A stretch of 64,000 bases of DNA from an uncultured Bacteroidales bacterium (GTDB lineage: Bacteria; Bacteroidota; Bacteroidia; Bacteroidales; UBA932), in the NCBI GenBank assembly GCA_905234475.1, contig CAJOHX010000003.1:1-64000 (forward strand). Direction: 5' to 3'. The position numbers and the translations under genes were made by a program. The notes beneath the pieces were generated by a model that did no database searches, was not told the origin of the DNA, and saw nothing but the letters and a program-made list of their open reading frames with translations. Within the stretch, counting starts at the first letter, position 1, and each line of letters begins with the position of its first letter. This document shows, piece after piece, positions 1,807-63,891 of the stretch.

Positions 1807-2970
1807 ATGAAGAAGATTTTCTTTTCCCTCATGATGCTCGCAGCCGTGGCCGCGTCTGCCCAGCAGCGAAACCCCGTCGTGCCGTCCTTCGCCGGCGCTG
1901 TCGAAGATTTCAAACCGAACGTAACGAATCAGCTCGGACACCAGTATCCGATGGTCAACTCGCAGGGAGCCGTGCGTGCGCAGCTCCGCGCCCCGGAAGC
2001 CAATGCGGTCCGTCTGGACATCGGCGGACGCAAATATGAGATGTCCAAGGATGAGAACGGCGTATGGACCGGCACGTCCGATCCGCAGGATGTCGGGTTC
2101 CATTATTATCAGCTTGAGGTGGACGGTGCTTCGGTACCCGATCCCGGCAGCCTCTATTTCTTCGGTGCAGGCCGGTGGGGCAGCGGCATCGAGGTCCCTT
2201 CCTATGATATGGATTTCTGGCAGGTCAAGAATGTGCCCCAGGGCTCGATCGTGGAGAAATATTATTGGTCAAAGGCCACCGAGAGCATGCGCCACTGCTA
2301 TATCTATCTGCCCGCCGAGTACGACAAGAACCCGGGCAAGAAGTATCCCGTCCTGTATCTCCAGCACGGCAATGCCGAGAATGAGCAGGGCTGGTCGGCC
2401 CAGGGCCACACCGGCCAGATCCTGGACAACCTGATTGCCGAAGGAAAGGCCGTTCCTTTCATCGTCGTGATGGATTACGGCCAGGGCCAGAATATCCACC
2501 TTGTGGAGAAATATGCCCTGCCTGCGCCCCCGCAGGGGCAGAATGCCGGCCGTGGGAACGCATCTGACGCCTTCTCCGTGGTCCTGCTGACCGATATCAT
2601 CCCGATGGTGGAGAAAGAGTACCGCGTAATCGCCGACGCGCAGCACCGCGCGATGGCCGGCCTGTCCATGGGCGGCGGCCAGACCCGCCGGATCACCCTG
2701 GCGAATCCCACGACGTTCGCCTATGTCGGGATGTTCAGCGGCGGTACGATCAGTGTTGAGGATGTCCAGACTGCGGCCGGTTTCCAGAAGACCAACAAGG
2801 TCGTGTTCATGAGCAGCGGCAGCAAGGAGAACCCGAGGGTCATGGAAGCGGCCGAGAAGCTCCAGGCCATCGGCATGAACGCCGTCGGTTACATTTCAGA
2901 GGGCACCGCCCATGAATGGCACACCTGGCGTCGCAGCCTCTACCAGTTCGCCCAGCTTCTGTTCAAATAA
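1807..2970 (+). CDS. Secreted CE1-like (feruloyl/acetyl-xylan) esterase with N-terminal E-set domain
   Basis: Signal peptide; GLSMGG nucleophile; GTAHEWHTWRRSLYQFAQLLFK C-terminus; upstream TATCTTTG box. Confidence 0.85.
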   Translation: MKKIFFSLMMLAAVAASAQQRNPVVPSFAGAVEDFKPNVTNQLGHQYPMVNSQGAVRAQLRAPEANAVRLDIGGRKYEMSKDENGVWTGTSDPQDVGFHYYQLEVDGASVPDPGSLYFFGAGRWGSGIEVPSYDMDFWQVKNVPQGSIVEKYYWSKATESMRHCYIYLPAEYDKNPGKKYPVLYLQHGNAENEQGWSAQGHTGQILDNLIAEGKAVPFIVVMDYGQGQNIHLVEKYALPAPPQGQNAGRGNASDAFSVVLLTDIIPMVEKEYRVIADAQHRAMAGLSMGGGQTRRITLANPTTFAYVGMFSGGTISVEDVQTAAGFQKTNKVVFMSSGSKENPRVMEAAEKLQAIGMNAVGYISEGTAHEWHTWRRSLYQFAQLLFK

Positions 2971-2988
2971 TCATAGTCCTGTATCATT

Positions 2989-4473
2989 ATGAAACCCAGA
3001 TTCTTCGTTTTTGCTGCCCTGGCCATGCTGTTTGCCGCATGCGGCAGCCCGGAAAAAACCAGTCCCGTCCTGACCATTGAGGGAGGACAGGTCCAAGGCG
3101 TCGCCGCCGACCTGGACGGCGTGTTCGTGTACAGGGGGATCCCGTATGCCGCGCCGCCGACCGGCGAGCTGCGCTGGAAGGCGCCCCAGCCCGTGGTGCC
3201 CTGGGAGGGCGTTCTCAAGGCCGACGCCTTCGGCCATCCGAGCTACCAGGCGGTGCATTATCCCGGCAACTATTTCACGGAGTGGGGATACGGCGACGAG
3301 AAGCAGTGCAGCGAGGACTGCCTGTACCTGAATGTGTGGACGAAGTATCCCGGCCAGGTGGACCGCAAGGCCCCGGTGGCCGTGTGGATCCACGGCGGCG
3401 GCTACCGCGAGGGCTGGGGCTCCGAGCCGGAGTTCGATGCGCAGGAGTGGGCCGCCCGGGATGTCGTCCTGGTGTCCATCAACTACCGCCTCGGCATCTT
3501 CGGCTTCATGGCGCATCCTGAGCTTTCCGCCGAAAGTCCGGACGGCGTGTCGGGCAACTACGGCATCCTGGACCAGATCGAGTCCCTGAAGTGGGTCAAG
3601 AAGAATATCGCCCAGTTCGGCGGCGATCCGGACAATGTGATGATCTTCGGCCAGAGCGCGGGCGGCGGCAGCGTCCGGACGCTGTGCGCATCGCCGCTGG
3701 CGAAGCCCTATTTCCACAAGGCGGTCATCATGAGCGCCAACGGCCTGAACGTCGTCAAGAACCAGAGCTTCACCCTGGCCGGCGGCGGCCCGGCCCTCCC
3801 GCCGTCCATGATCAAGATGATGTTCGGCGGCCAGACCCTGAAGGAAGCCGAGGCGGAAGGCAAGGCCGTCATGGACTGGGCCGGCCTGACCGACCTGAAG
3901 AAGATGCGCGCCGCCGCGACGGATGTCGCCCATGCCGCCTCCGCCCTCTATACTTCCGCTACGGGCAAGCCCGGCATCACCATCACGCCGATCATCGACG
4001 GCCACGTGTCCGTGGAAGTGTTTGACGATGCGGCCGCAGACGGGTCGCTGGCCGATGTGCCCTATATGATCGGCTATACGATGAATGACATGGGGGATAT
4101 GTCGGAAGGCATCGTCGCCTTCTGCGAGAACCGCCGGGAGAAGGGGAATAAAGCGTGGGCCTATGAGTTCGCCCGCCCGCTGCCGGATGACGGTTCCCAC
4201 CCGGAGGATCAGCTCAAAGGTGCCTTCCATTCTTCGGACCTGTGGTTCGTGTTCAAGTCGCTCCAGCACTGCTGGCGCCCCTGGACGCCGGGCGACTGGG
4301 CCCTCTCCGAGAAGATGATCACTGCGTGGACCAATTTCGCCAAGTACAGCGATCCCAACGGGCCCGACGGCGGCGCCTGGACGCCCTGCACGAAGGAGAA
4401 TCCCGGCTTCATGGTCTTCCGGCTGGATGCATCCGACGCCGAGTCGTCCGCGCTGGGACAGCCGGTCAAATAG
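2989..4473 (+). CDS. Type-B carboxylesterase family lipoprotein
   Basis: Lipobox-like ...FAACGS; YRGIPYAAPPTGELRWKAPQP; HGGGY; GQSAGGGS motifs. Confidence 0.9.
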   Translation: MKPRFFVFAALAMLFAACGSPEKTSPVLTIEGGQVQGVAADLDGVFVYRGIPYAAPPTGELRWKAPQPVVPWEGVLKADAFGHPSYQAVHYPGNYFTEWGYGDEKQCSEDCLYLNVWTKYPGQVDRKAPVAVWIHGGGYREGWGSEPEFDAQEWAARDVVLVSINYRLGIFGFMAHPELSAESPDGVSGNYGILDQIESLKWVKKNIAQFGGDPDNVMIFGQSAGGGSVRTLCASPLAKPYFHKAVIMSANGLNVVKNQSFTLAGGGPALPPSMIKMMFGGQTLKEAEAEGKAVMDWAGLTDLKKMRAAATDVAHAASALYTSATGKPGITITPIIDGHVSVEVFDDAAADGSLADVPYMIGYTMNDMGDMSEGIVAFCENRREKGNKAWAYEFARPLPDDGSHPEDQLKGAFHSSDLWFVFKSLQHCWRPWTPGDWALSEKMITAWTNFAKYSDPNGPDGGAWTPCTKENPGFMVFRLDASDAESSALGQPVK

Positions 4474-34795: not shown

Positions 34796-37255
34796 ATGGA
34801 AGAGAATGTGAACTTGATTCTGGAGGAGTTGAACGACGAGCAGCGGCGGGCTGTGTGTTGTGTGGACGGGCCCGTGCTGATCGTTGCCGGAGCGGGATCC
34901 GGCAAGACCCGTGTTCTGACCAGCCGGGTGGCTTATATCCTTGCCTTGCAGGAAGATGCACGCGTTCTTGCCCTGACTTTTACCAAGAAGGCAGCCGGCG
35001 AGATGAAGGAGCGCATCGCCGCAATGGTGGGAGGCTACAGGCTGCGCCGGGTGGTGATGGGGACCTTCCATGCCGTGTTCGTGCGCTTCCTTCGCGAGTA
35101 TGCGGGGCAGCTGGGCTATCCCGAGCATTTCACCATCTACGACACGTCCGATTCCCAGAGCGCCATCAAGGCCTGCCTCAAGGAGATGGGCCTCGACGAC
35201 AAGGTCTACAAGCCGCGGGACGTGCTGGCCCGCATCTCCATGGCCAAGAACAACCTCATCACGGTCTCGGCCTACCAGGCCAGCCAGGAGCTCCAGACGC
35301 AGGACTACCATACCAAGCGGCCGCGCCTGGGCGAGGTGTACCAGCGCTACCAGGAGAAGCTAAAGCAGAGCGGGGTGATGGACTTCGACGACATCCTGCT
35401 CAACATGAACAAACTGCTGCACGACAGTCCGGAGGCGCTGCAGACCATCGCCGGGCGCTTCACGCACATCCTGGTGGACGAGTACCAGGACACCAACCGG
35501 GCGCAGTACCTGATCCTGAAGAAGCTTGCCCAGTATCACCGCAACCTTTGCGTGGTGGGCGACGACAGCCAGTCCATCTATGCCTTCCGCGGCGCCCGGA
35601 TCGAGAACATTCTCAGCTTCAAGAAAGATTATCCGGAGTGCAAGCTCTTCCGCCTGGAGCGCAACTACCGCTCCACGCAGATGATCGTGGATGCCGCCAA
35701 TTCCGTCATCGCCCACAACGAGGGGCGCATCCCCAAGGTATGCTACGCCGTGGGCGAGGCTGGGGAGCGCATCCGCATCATCAAGGCCTACACCGAGCAG
35801 GAGGAGGCGGTGATGATCGTCTCCGAGATCCAGGACCGGATGCGCCGTGCGCGGGCGCAGTATCAGGATTTCGCCATCCTGTACCGGACCAATTCGCAGT
35901 CCCGCGCGCTGGAAGAGCAGCTCCGCCGGCGCAACATCCCCTATATGATCTACTCCGGCAATTCCTTCTTCGAGCGGGCGGAGGTCAAGGACATGATGGC
36001 CTATTTCAAGCTGGTCGTCAATCCGCGCGACGACGAATCGTTCCGCCGGGTGGTCAACAAGCCTGCGCGGGGCATCGGCGACAAGGCCCTGGGGGCCGTG
36101 GAGGCCGAGGCCCGACAGCGGGGCTGCCCGCTCTTCGAGGCGGCGCAGCAGGTCCCGAAGGTGCAGGAGTTCTGCGCCATGATCGCGGACCTCGCGGCGC
36201 GGGTGCGCACCACTGACGCCTATGTGCTGGCGAAGCTGATTGCCGACCGGAGCACGCTGTACGCGTTCTATAAGCAGGATACCTCCATCGAGGGCCTGTC
36301 GCGCCTGGCGAATGTGGACGAACTCATCAACAGCGTGGAGCAGTTCGTCGAGGAGCGTACCGATGAGGCTGCCGACTATGCGGAGGAAGGGGGCGAGGTC
36401 GGGGTGTTCACCCTGGATGACTTTCTGGAGAATGTCTCCCTGCTGAGCAACGTCGACGTGGCGGAAGGGGAAGAGGACACCAACAACAAGGTCGCCCTCA
36501 TGACGGCGCATTCTTCCAAGGGCCTGGAGTTCCCGTACGTGTTCGTGGCGGGGATGGAGGAGAATCTCTTCCCGAGTGTGTCCATGCTTTCCGCCAAGTC
36601 GGAGGTGGAGGAGGAGCGGCGGCTTTTCTACGTGGCCGTGACGCGCGCCAAGCGGGCGGTTGCGCTGTCGTATGCCGGGACGCGCATGCGCAACGGCAAG
36701 CACGAGTCCAACGCCCCGTCGCGTTTCCTAAAGGAGATCGATCCCCGCTTCCTGGAGAATCCGCTGGATGAGGGAGACTTTGACAATGAAGGTGTTACCC
36801 ATGAATGGGGTGGCTTCGGCAGCCGCTTCACCGGCGGCCGGCTGAATCGGTTCGGCGTTGGAAGTGGTGCTTATGGGCAGTCTTCCGGCGTGCAGCACGA
36901 ACAGAAGGACGCCGGTCGGAATCGGTTTGGCCAGCAGCCCTCGAGGGGCGTAGCCACCCATGGCTTCGTAAATGGGAGGGATGAGGGGCGTAGCCCCGAA
37001 CCCATTCGAGGGCTGGCTGGCCAACCGACGACTGGCGTCCGACAAGCTTTGGCAGATGCGAACTTCGTGGGGGTGCCGATGACGGAACTGTCGGAGGGCC
37101 AGCGCATCGAACACAACCGCTTCGGCCCCGGCACCATCCTGGAGCTCTCCGGCCGCGTCCCCGACATGAAGGCCCGCATCCGCTTCGACGCCTTCGGCGA
37201 GAAGCTCCTGCTGCTCAAATATGCGAAGATCAGGCCGCTGCCAGAGCAGAAATAA
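34796..37255 (+). CDS. pcrA: UvrD/PcrA-type ATP-dependent helicase
   Basis: VNLILEELNDEQRRAVCC; AGAGSGKTRVLTSRVAYI; VDEYQDTNRAQY; DDSQSIYAFRGA; VALMTAHSSKGLEFPYVFV. C-terminal linker interrupted by an IR element. Confidence 0.96.
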   Translation: MEENVNLILEELNDEQRRAVCCVDGPVLIVAGAGSGKTRVLTSRVAYILALQEDARVLALTFTKKAAGEMKERIAAMVGGYRLRRVVMGTFHAVFVRFLREYAGQLGYPEHFTIYDTSDSQSAIKACLKEMGLDDKVYKPRDVLARISMAKNNLITVSAYQASQELQTQDYHTKRPRLGEVYQRYQEKLKQSGVMDFDDILLNMNKLLHDSPEALQTIAGRFTHILVDEYQDTNRAQYLILKKLAQYHRNLCVVGDDSQSIYAFRGARIENILSFKKDYPECKLFRLERNYRSTQMIVDAANSVIAHNEGRIPKVCYAVGEAGERIRIIKAYTEQEEAVMIVSEIQDRMRRARAQYQDFAILYRTNSQSRALEEQLRRRNIPYMIYSGNSFFERAEVKDMMAYFKLVVNPRDDESFRRVVNKPARGIGDKALGAVEAEARQRGCPLFEAAQQVPKVQEFCAMIADLAARVRTTDAYVLAKLIADRSTLYAFYKQDTSIEGLSRLANVDELINSVEQFVEERTDEAADYAEEGGEVGVFTLDDFLENVSLLSNVDVAEGEEDTNNKVALMTAHSSKGLEFPYVFVAGMEENLFPSVSMLSAKSEVEEERRLFYVAVTRAKRAVALSYAGTRMRNGKHESNAPSRFLKEIDPRFLENPLDEGDFDNEGVTHEWGGFGSRFTGGRLNRFGVGSGAYGQSSGVQHEQKDAGRNRFGQQPSRGVATHGFVNGRDEGRSPEPIRGLAGQPTTGVRQALADANFVGVPMTELSEGQRIEHNRFGPGTILELSGRVPDMKARIRFDAFGEKLLLLKYAKIRPLPEQK
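36907..37040. repeat. 134-bp imperfect inverted-repeat (MITE/REP-like) element inserted in frame in the helicase gene
   Basis: Left arm GGACGCCGGTCGGAATCGGTTTGGCCAGCAGCCCTCGA; reverse complement of right arm GGACGCCAGTCGTCGGTTGGCCAGCCAGCCCTCGA; internal direct repeat GAGGGGCGTAGCC. Confidence 0.65.
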
Positions 37256-37289
37256 TTTGAAAATACAGAGCAGAAATAATTTGAAAATA
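37242..37289. repeat. Exact 24-bp tandem duplication spanning the helicase stop codon
   Basis: CAGAGCAGAAATAATTTGAAAATA twice (37242-37265, 37266-37289). Confidence 0.9.
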
Positions 37290-60082: not shown

Positions 60083-62361
<2,279 letters not shown>

Positions 62362-62364
62362 TCT

Positions 62365-63891
62365 ATGAAACGCTTTTTACTTTTGATGGCGGCGGCGCTA
62401 GGCCTGTGGGCTTGCGCCAGCCAGGTGCCCGGCCAGGTCAAGGTGACCGGCGGCACGATCCAGGGCGAGGTCCTGGAGGACATGACGGTGTACAAGGGCA
62501 TCCCGTTCGCGGCTCCGCCCGTGGGTGAGTTGCGCTGGAAGGCGCCGCAGCCCGTGGTGGCGTGGGACGGCGTGCTGGAATGCACGAAATTCGCACCCGC
62601 CCCGATGCAAGGCGGTGGCCAGGGATGCAGCGAGGACTGCCTCTACCTGAATGTCTGGACGCCTGCGAAGAGCCCGCGCGAGAAGCTCCCGGTGATGGTC
62701 TGGATCTACGGCGGCGGCTTTGCCGGCGGCTCGACCGACCAGTATGACGGGGCGGCGCTGGCCCGCGAGGGCGTGATCCTGGTGAGCGTGGCGTACCGCG
62801 TGGGCAAGCTGGGCTTCCTGACCCTGCCCGCCCTGAACGCGGAGGATCCCCACGGGGTGAGCGGCAACTACGGCATCCTGGACCAGATCGCCGGTCTGCA
62901 GTGGGTGCATGACAACATCGCGAAGTTTGGCGGCGATCCCGCCAAGGTGACCATTTTCGGCGAGTCCGCCGGCGGCATCTCCGTGAGCATGCTGTGCGCT
63001 TCGCCGCTGGCCAAGGGCCTGTTCCGGGGTGCCATTTCCCAGAGTGGCGGCTCCTTCGGCCCGACGAATCCCCGGGATTTCCCGGGTGAGAACATGCTGA
63101 CGCTCGCGTACGCCCAGGAGCTGAACGACGCCTGGGCCAAGGCCACGTTCGGAGAGAACTACACGCTGGAGCAGCTGCGCGCTGCGGAGCCGAGGGCCGT
63201 CATGGGCTCCTTCGGCGGCTCCGGCGGCTGGCCGGTGACGGACGGTTACGTGATCCCGGACGACCAGTACAAGATGTACGAGGCAGGGAACTACAACGAC
63301 GTGGACGTGCTGATCGGCTACAATTCCGACGAGGGCATGAGCTTCGGCTTCGCCCGCGGCAATGGCAGCCATGAGGAGTCGACCCGCGCCCGCTACGAGG
63401 ACTATGCCGACAAGCTGCTGGCGGCCTATCCGCTGGAGCCGGACGGCAAGGTGGGCAAGACCGCCCGCGACCTCACGCGCGACGCCGCCTTCGGCTGGCA
63501 GACTTGGGCCTGGGCCCGCCTGCAGGAGAAGACCGGCAAGGGCCGCGTGTGGCTGTACTATTTCGATCAGCATCCGGACTATCCGACGGACTCCCCGCGC
63601 TACGGGCAGGCCTCGCCGCACGGCCAGGATGTCGCCTACGTGTTCGGCAACCCGCAGGAGGTGCAGCCGACCGACAAGCAGCTCTCCGAGTGGATGATGG
63701 CCTACTGGACCAATTTCGCCAAGACGGGCGACCCGAACGGCGCCGGCCTCGCAGAGTGGCCGCGCTTCCGGAACGACAATCCGCAGTCGATGCTGCTCAC
63801 CGGTTCCGGCTGCCATGCCATCCCCGTCCCGTCGGAGAAGGCCATGTGGGTGCTGGACGAGTATTTCGCCTGGCGCCGCAGCATGGAATAA
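62365..63891 (+). CDS. Type-B carboxylesterase family protein
   Basis: YKGIPFAAPPVGELRWKAPQP; IYGGGFAGGS; GESAGGIS; ends DEYFAWRRSME. Confidence 0.92.
   Translation: MKRFLLLMAAALGLWACASQVPGQVKVTGGTIQGEVLEDMTVYKGIPFAAPPVGELRWKAPQPVVAWDGVLECTKFAPAPMQGGGQGCSEDCLYLNVWTPAKSPREKLPVMVWIYGGGFAGGSTDQYDGAALAREGVILVSVAYRVGKLGFLTLPALNAEDPHGVSGNYGILDQIAGLQWVHDNIAKFGGDPAKVTIFGESAGGISVSMLCASPLAKGLFRGAISQSGGSFGPTNPRDFPGENMLTLAYAQELNDAWAKATFGENYTLEQLRAAEPRAVMGSFGGSGGWPVTDGYVIPDDQYKMYEAGNYNDVDVLIGYNSDEGMSFGFARGNGSHEESTRARYEDYADKLLAAYPLEPDGKVGKTARDLTRDAAFGWQTWAWARLQEKTGKGRVWLYYFDQHPDYPTDSPRYGQASPHGQDVAYVFGNPQEVQPTDKQLSEWMMAYWTNFAKTGDPNGAGLAEWPRFRNDNPQSMLLTGSGCHAIPVPSEKAMWVLDEYFAWRRSME

Follow-up and report, generated by a model that had tools for sequence, protein, structure and literature searches.

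The window (the whole 64,000-nt stretch of DNA analyzed here) contains a pcrA/uvrD-type helicase gene that carries a 134-nt palindromic element in frame. The palindrome, which an earlier sequence-only reading had pointed out, was recovered by an inverted-repeat search, with outer arms that are 92% complementary and inner arms that are 78% complementary, and its RNA fold is markedly more stable than those of shuffled sequences (−91 kcal/mol versus −55.8 ± 4.3 in 200 shuffles, z = −8.3). The insertion lies in the linker of the protein, as that reading had also proposed: it encodes the peptide DAGRNRFGQQPSRGVATHGFVNGRDEGRSPEPIRGLAGQPTTGVRQ within the pcrA ORF, between the Pfam domains UvrD_C (to residue 628) and Tudor (from residue 769). 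A direct repeat, GAGGGGCGTAGCC, had been described inside the element as well. Its first unit is indeed at 36943, and the second is at 36983 and not at 36982. Because most orthologous PcrA copies in our alignment read GGCCGAAGGCC instead of GGGGCGTAGCCCC in the second hairpin, we regard the direct repeat as local to some copies, and not as an ancestral structural feature of the element.

Features of the pcrA gene and of the palindromic element within it (positions in the window)
Feature	Position	Strand	Basis
pcrA/uvrD-type helicase gene with element in frame	34796..37255	+	ORF; Pfam UvrD-helicase, UvrD_C, PcrA_UvrD_tudor
Whole palindromic element (134 nt)	36907..37040	+	Inverted repeats; fold z −8.3; absent in close relative L145
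Left arm (outer 36907-36918, inner 36922-36944)	36907..36944	+	Repeats, fold; arms co-change in orthologous copy L044
Pseudoknot stem 1: 36952-36955 (AGCC) × 36962-36965 (GGCT)	36952..36965	+	X:X′ covariation
Pseudoknot stem 2: 36957-36961 (CCCAT) × 36972-36976 (ATGGG)	36957..36976	+	Both NN pairs covary
Conserved loop TCGTAA of pseudoknot	36966-36971	+	Within stem 2 feature
Site of lost H2 hairpin (GGGCCCGCAGCCGCAGGCTGTGGGAGG in orthologous copies)	36977..36984	+	Alignment of orthologous copies
H3 hairpin GGGGC(GTA)GCCCC, GNA triloop	36985..36997	+	Sequence; fold; family GNA loop census
Right arm (inner 37006-37028, outer 37029-37040)	37006..37040	+	Inverted repeats

The 3′ end of pcrA, including its stop codon, is spanned by a perfect 24-nt tandem duplication (37242-37289, CAGAGCAGAAATAATTTGAAAATA twice). 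The two ends of the window hold three paralogous stretches (2035-3215, 60278-61224, and 61453-62576), which have 60-78% DNA identity over their shared blocks.

The sole part of the element that is conserved family-wide is a covarying pseudoknot at its center, which the sequence-only reading had missed. From the outside in, the element consists of paired arms of about 20-40 nt, CCGT, the core, AGGG with the inserted hairpins H2 and H3, and the right arm. The core has the consensus X-GCC-R-CCCNN-GGC-X′-TCGTRA-NNGGG, which corresponds to a 25-nt H-type pseudoknot. The sequences of the arms differ from copy to copy, yet they still pair. Among 26 distinct cores, 98.7% of the cells pair, there are 40 double changes, and the X:X′ pair is G:C, A:T, or T:A (9, 8, and 8 cores, respectively). 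The NN:NN positions of stem 2 co-change across copies, and loops 1 and 3 carry the same purine (A with A, G with G) in all but two cases. The covariation score of the pseudoknot is 0.388, versus 0.119 in shuffles, none of which reached the observed value in 500 trials, and no more than 0.071 in slid alignments. A divergent copy in the window’s own genome (L214) has AACC:GGTT as its stem 1, and genomes G174, G226, and G256 share this type of pseudoknot but differ in the loop (e.g., TGCC-A-CCCTC-GGCA-GTAA-GAGGG). Because the core pattern was what identified most copies, the high core identity between orthologous copies is partly due to ascertainment and is no proof of selection. No base is conserved across copies beyond about 30 nt from the core, and a REP-like GGAG/GCGNAGC motif is present in the outer arms of a minority of copies only.

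The hairpins H2 and H3 behave as modules: the window copy and L132 each lack one of the two, H2 is enlarged in L092, and L019 has several hairpins. In one intragenic copy (L218, G000:C16:14928-15052), the pseudoknot loop itself holds an additional hairpin module. A census of hairpin loops across the family yielded 80 GNA triloops and 25 GNNA tetraloops, versus one each of the complementary kinds. GNA triloops and GNNA tetraloops are the loop types of stable DNA mini-hairpins. As a general fact, DNA mini-hairpins can be extraordinarily stable (PMC10527192). The loop bias looks like a DNA-type, strand-specific signature, and the strand with the pseudoknot seems made for folding as single-stranded DNA, with the caution that a pseudoknot is equally natural for RNA.

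When the window’s own genome was searched with the element itself, only two partial matches were retrieved, both confined to the center. A pattern derived from the center found 15 copies (0 in a reversed control), and a covariance model found 17, the window copy included. The sequence-only reading would have been refuted by a lack of further copies together with a linker conserved in distant orthologues; 16 other copies are present in the same genome. Across the genus, 158 of 250 genomes carry the element, and copy numbers range from 0 to 32 per genome (0 in a reversed control). A scan of GTDB genomes with the core pattern gave at least 113 loci; among the matches listed, all were from Bacteroidales or Bacteroidia, mostly from rumen and omasum, and one was named Candidatus Cryptobacteroides. 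Beyond its own genus, the element is sparse and extends to four other genera of the order. An order-wide scan of 393 genomes with the pattern retrieved the own genome and G075 only, and the covariance model added G174 (same family, other genus), G226, G256, and a weak match in G416 of the same genus. Since several of the G075 copies (L191-L193) sit at or near contig ends, some of them broken inside the hairpin, draft assemblies probably undercount the element.

With the covariance models of Rfam 15, the window gave no match near any gathering score, and the loci of 13 other copies gave one match, which was outside the element and below the cut-off. Carriage of the element by viruses or plasmids was rejected because the viral contigs and plasmids searched contained no match. 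We found no description of the element in the searched papers outside subscription journals.

Of 128 copies, up to 83 are located in long ORFs, where five of the six frames are used; the count is an upper bound because a few of these ORFs are spurious. Genic copies have no orientation bias (40 on the coding strand versus 43 on the opposite one). The hosts in the window’s own genome include PcrA, CCA nucleotidyltransferase, DsbD, RNase R (rnr), RsmF, a GltD-like oxidoreductase, HI0933-like and other flavoproteins, a SpoU methylase, and DNA polymerase I (polA), and host proteins keep their Pfam domains next to or around the insert, on both sides. Between orthologous loci, in pairs that are not all independent, the length differs by a multiple of 3 in 221 of the 233 non-zero cases at genic sites, versus 26 of 52 for sites that were not classed as genic. 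For differences of at least 75 nt at genic sites, the fraction is 43 of 45, and the two exceptions are L072, which is intergenic by its alignment, and L111, which is probably intergenic. Intergenic copies sit out of phase. Judging from the open frames, genic copies are apparently translated and add a few dozen amino acids without breaking the gene.

Comparison of orthologous loci revealed that some sites are empty. Both core and arms are missing from the L013 site (CCA transferase) in L067, L077, and L106, from the L042 site in L137, and from the intergenic L072 site in L108. In L115 and L037, the element occupies one site in opposite orientations, and L123 has an apparent remnant at the L101 site, with arms and no core. 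The pcrA insertion of the window is common to several species (G008, whose locus L142 has the same sequence as L124, and L034, L044, and L092) and is missing in a close relative, G015 (L145). In L044, both arms of the PcrA copy have changed and their pairing is kept. Elements in reverse orientation are found in the PcrA linkers of L143 and L148. The L169 locus, near-identical to L148 around the site, is without 57 nt of the core; because its arms and part of H3 remain, we read it as a copy that lost its core by an in-frame deletion. We rejected the idea that the arms are palindromes that pre-existed at the target, given that empty sites have no arms and that the core-less arms of L169, and apparently those of L123, belong to eroded copies.

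The proposal of an insertion is also in line with the alignment of PcrA orthologues, most of which have an unrelated linker without the insert; in distant orthologues, the linker is not conserved. In another species (L144), this linker is filled by a different repeat-like peptide (REIPPLRSAPVGMTGT...), which may make the PcrA linker a hot spot of several families of palindromic repeats.

We consider the arms to belong to the mobile unit, because several copies in G226 share arms of about 22 nt within subfamilies, two of which occur in this one genome. Type-B copies of the window’s own genome share arms of about 22 nt as well. In a set of 99 genomes with a completeness of 90% or more, 62 of the 77 genomes with Y1_Tnp have the core, versus 7 of the 22 without Y1_Tnp (P = 3e−5, without phylogenetic correction and with counts transferred by hand). 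The number of cores is uncorrelated with the number of Y1 genes (rho = −0.03). Genome G013 has 11 cores and no Y1_Tnp, which is absent from three genomes with 7-11 cores. Only one core was found beside 22 RAYT loci (82 kb), which is no more than expected.

Three candidate mobilizers were rejected. RAYTs of the L140 type are absent (E < 1e−40) in G013, G016, G457, G489, and G639, which have 11-32 cores. The RAYT of the window’s own genome (L139) carries its own CGTC-type repeats: on contig G000:C31, the gene for this RAYT-like Y1 transposase has, on either side, near-identical inverted-repeat pairs (L139:1230-1317 and 2302-2389) of the form TGTCGTCAATGTCC...GGACATTGACG(A/T)CA, a CGTC-type REP arrangement. 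DDE_Tnp_1 has no association with core presence and is absent from the window’s own genome. Thus, no candidate is systematically linked to the element, and the one RAYT subtype tested is a misfit. As a class, Y1/HUH transposases of the RAYT type would be the likeliest mobilizers, an assignment we make tentatively and at somewhat less than an even chance. Separately, at L195:2085-4150, the element is located just downstream of a transposase-like ORF (DDE_Tnp_1 match in G446:C4), and the L196 copy has a similar flank; the element may, for this reason, also be carried by an insertion sequence.

Taken together, these observations make it probable that the window insert is a member of a dispersed family of selfish palindromes of Bacteroidales that resembles the Rickettsia palindromic elements (RPEs), a confidence that is separate from the identity of the mobilizer. 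The family is multi-copy, sits in frame in either orientation, leaves some sites empty, keeps its core and arms by compensatory change, and would persist as in-frame selfish DNA. PcrA linkers of the genus do vary in length and sequence, but the probability that the insert is just an ordinary variable linker, palindromic by chance, or an assembly artifact is negligible in view of the stability of the fold (z = −8.3), of a core that recurs in genes unrelated to each other, and of the orthologous copies found in genomes assembled independently. A covarying H-type pseudoknot and strong hairpins would also fit a structured RNA that spread as a retro-element, whether it splices or cleaves itself or acts as a regulatory module in the mRNA. 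However, genic copies keep the reading frame, which splicing would not require, they run with the gene as often as against it, the loops are of the DNA-stable GNA/GNNA kinds and not GNRA or UNCG, and Rfam has no match, all of which makes this explanation very unlikely. It is also unlikely that the element is a classical MITE whose arms are recognized as terminal inverted repeats by a DDE transposase. The arms of about 22 nt shared within subfamilies of G226 and among type-B copies fit this explanation, but it is the center, and not the arms, that is conserved between subfamilies, and the only DDE family examined, DDE_Tnp_1, has the distribution described above. No target-site duplication was seen, in empty-site locus pairs whose divergence blurs the exact ends.

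For a selfish palindromic family, we propose that the mobile unit would comprise the subfamily-specific arms (about 22-25 nt) and the core, moving as a folded single strand of DNA. Movement as single-stranded DNA is probable because of the loop chemistry and the lack of coding-strand bias, and the conserved pseudoknot would be the structure recognized by the mobilizer, because the core alone is common to all subfamilies. Frame-shifting insertions would be lost by selection, and insertions in linkers and loops would persist and be translated. Persisting copies would later lose inner hairpins or the core in frame, and such erosion would leave extra amino acids behind, with no need to assume a benefit to the host. 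A bolder version, which we hold to be less likely than not, is that the element represents a new class of mobile elements. A conserved central pseudoknot of single-stranded DNA would be recognized instead of terminal repeats, the mobilizer would be an HUH enzyme or another one so far without a link to the element, and the element would have adapted to genes by having nearly all frames open.

Rickettsia is the best-known source of in-frame selfish palindromes, and intragenic REPs are found in some other genomes. The same in-gene lifestyle now appears in rumen and gut Bacteroidales, in genes like polA, pcrA, and rnr, and its filled, empty, flipped, and eroded sites provide material on how selfish DNA turns into protein sequence. 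The covarying core offers a definite handle for finding the mobilizing enzyme, and genome annotators can use the covariance model to recognize such inserts.

Because the element has no terminal tag, no fixed peptide, and a different architecture, we file it under neither RPEs nor REPs. Like MITEs, it is short and non-autonomous, with inverted repeats and occasional in-frame fusions. The sequence-only reading had likened it to a protein-coding MITE, which holds in that the element is a dispersed, insertable, in-frame, and apparently translated palindrome, but a MITE in the strict sense is not demonstrated, since terminal repeats are conserved only within subfamilies, no target duplication was seen in the diverged empty-site pairs, and no cognate transposase was found. 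With the REP/REPIN and RAYT systems, it shares palindromes that fold as single strands and are sometimes located inside replication and repair genes (PMC3733652). Y1/RAYT genes tend to co-occur with the element (P = 3e−5, without phylogenetic correction), but three genomes with 7-11 cores have no Y1_Tnp. Unlike REPs and REPINs, it is longer and predominantly intragenic, has no conserved terminal GTAG/CGTC tag, and does not systematically flank a RAYT gene. It differs from RPEs in its Bacteroidales host, its covarying pseudoknot core, its arms that vary between copies, and the lack of a CGTC terminal tag, and, whereas RPEs have a conserved peptide in one frame, it uses five of the six frames in both orientations. 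As far as can be judged from descriptions, and with the listed core-pattern matches coming only from Bacteroidales, the element is nevertheless like RPEs in being palindromic and about 100-150 bp long, in residing in frame in many unrelated housekeeping genes, and, apparently, in being translated while the host gene survives (PMC10969869).
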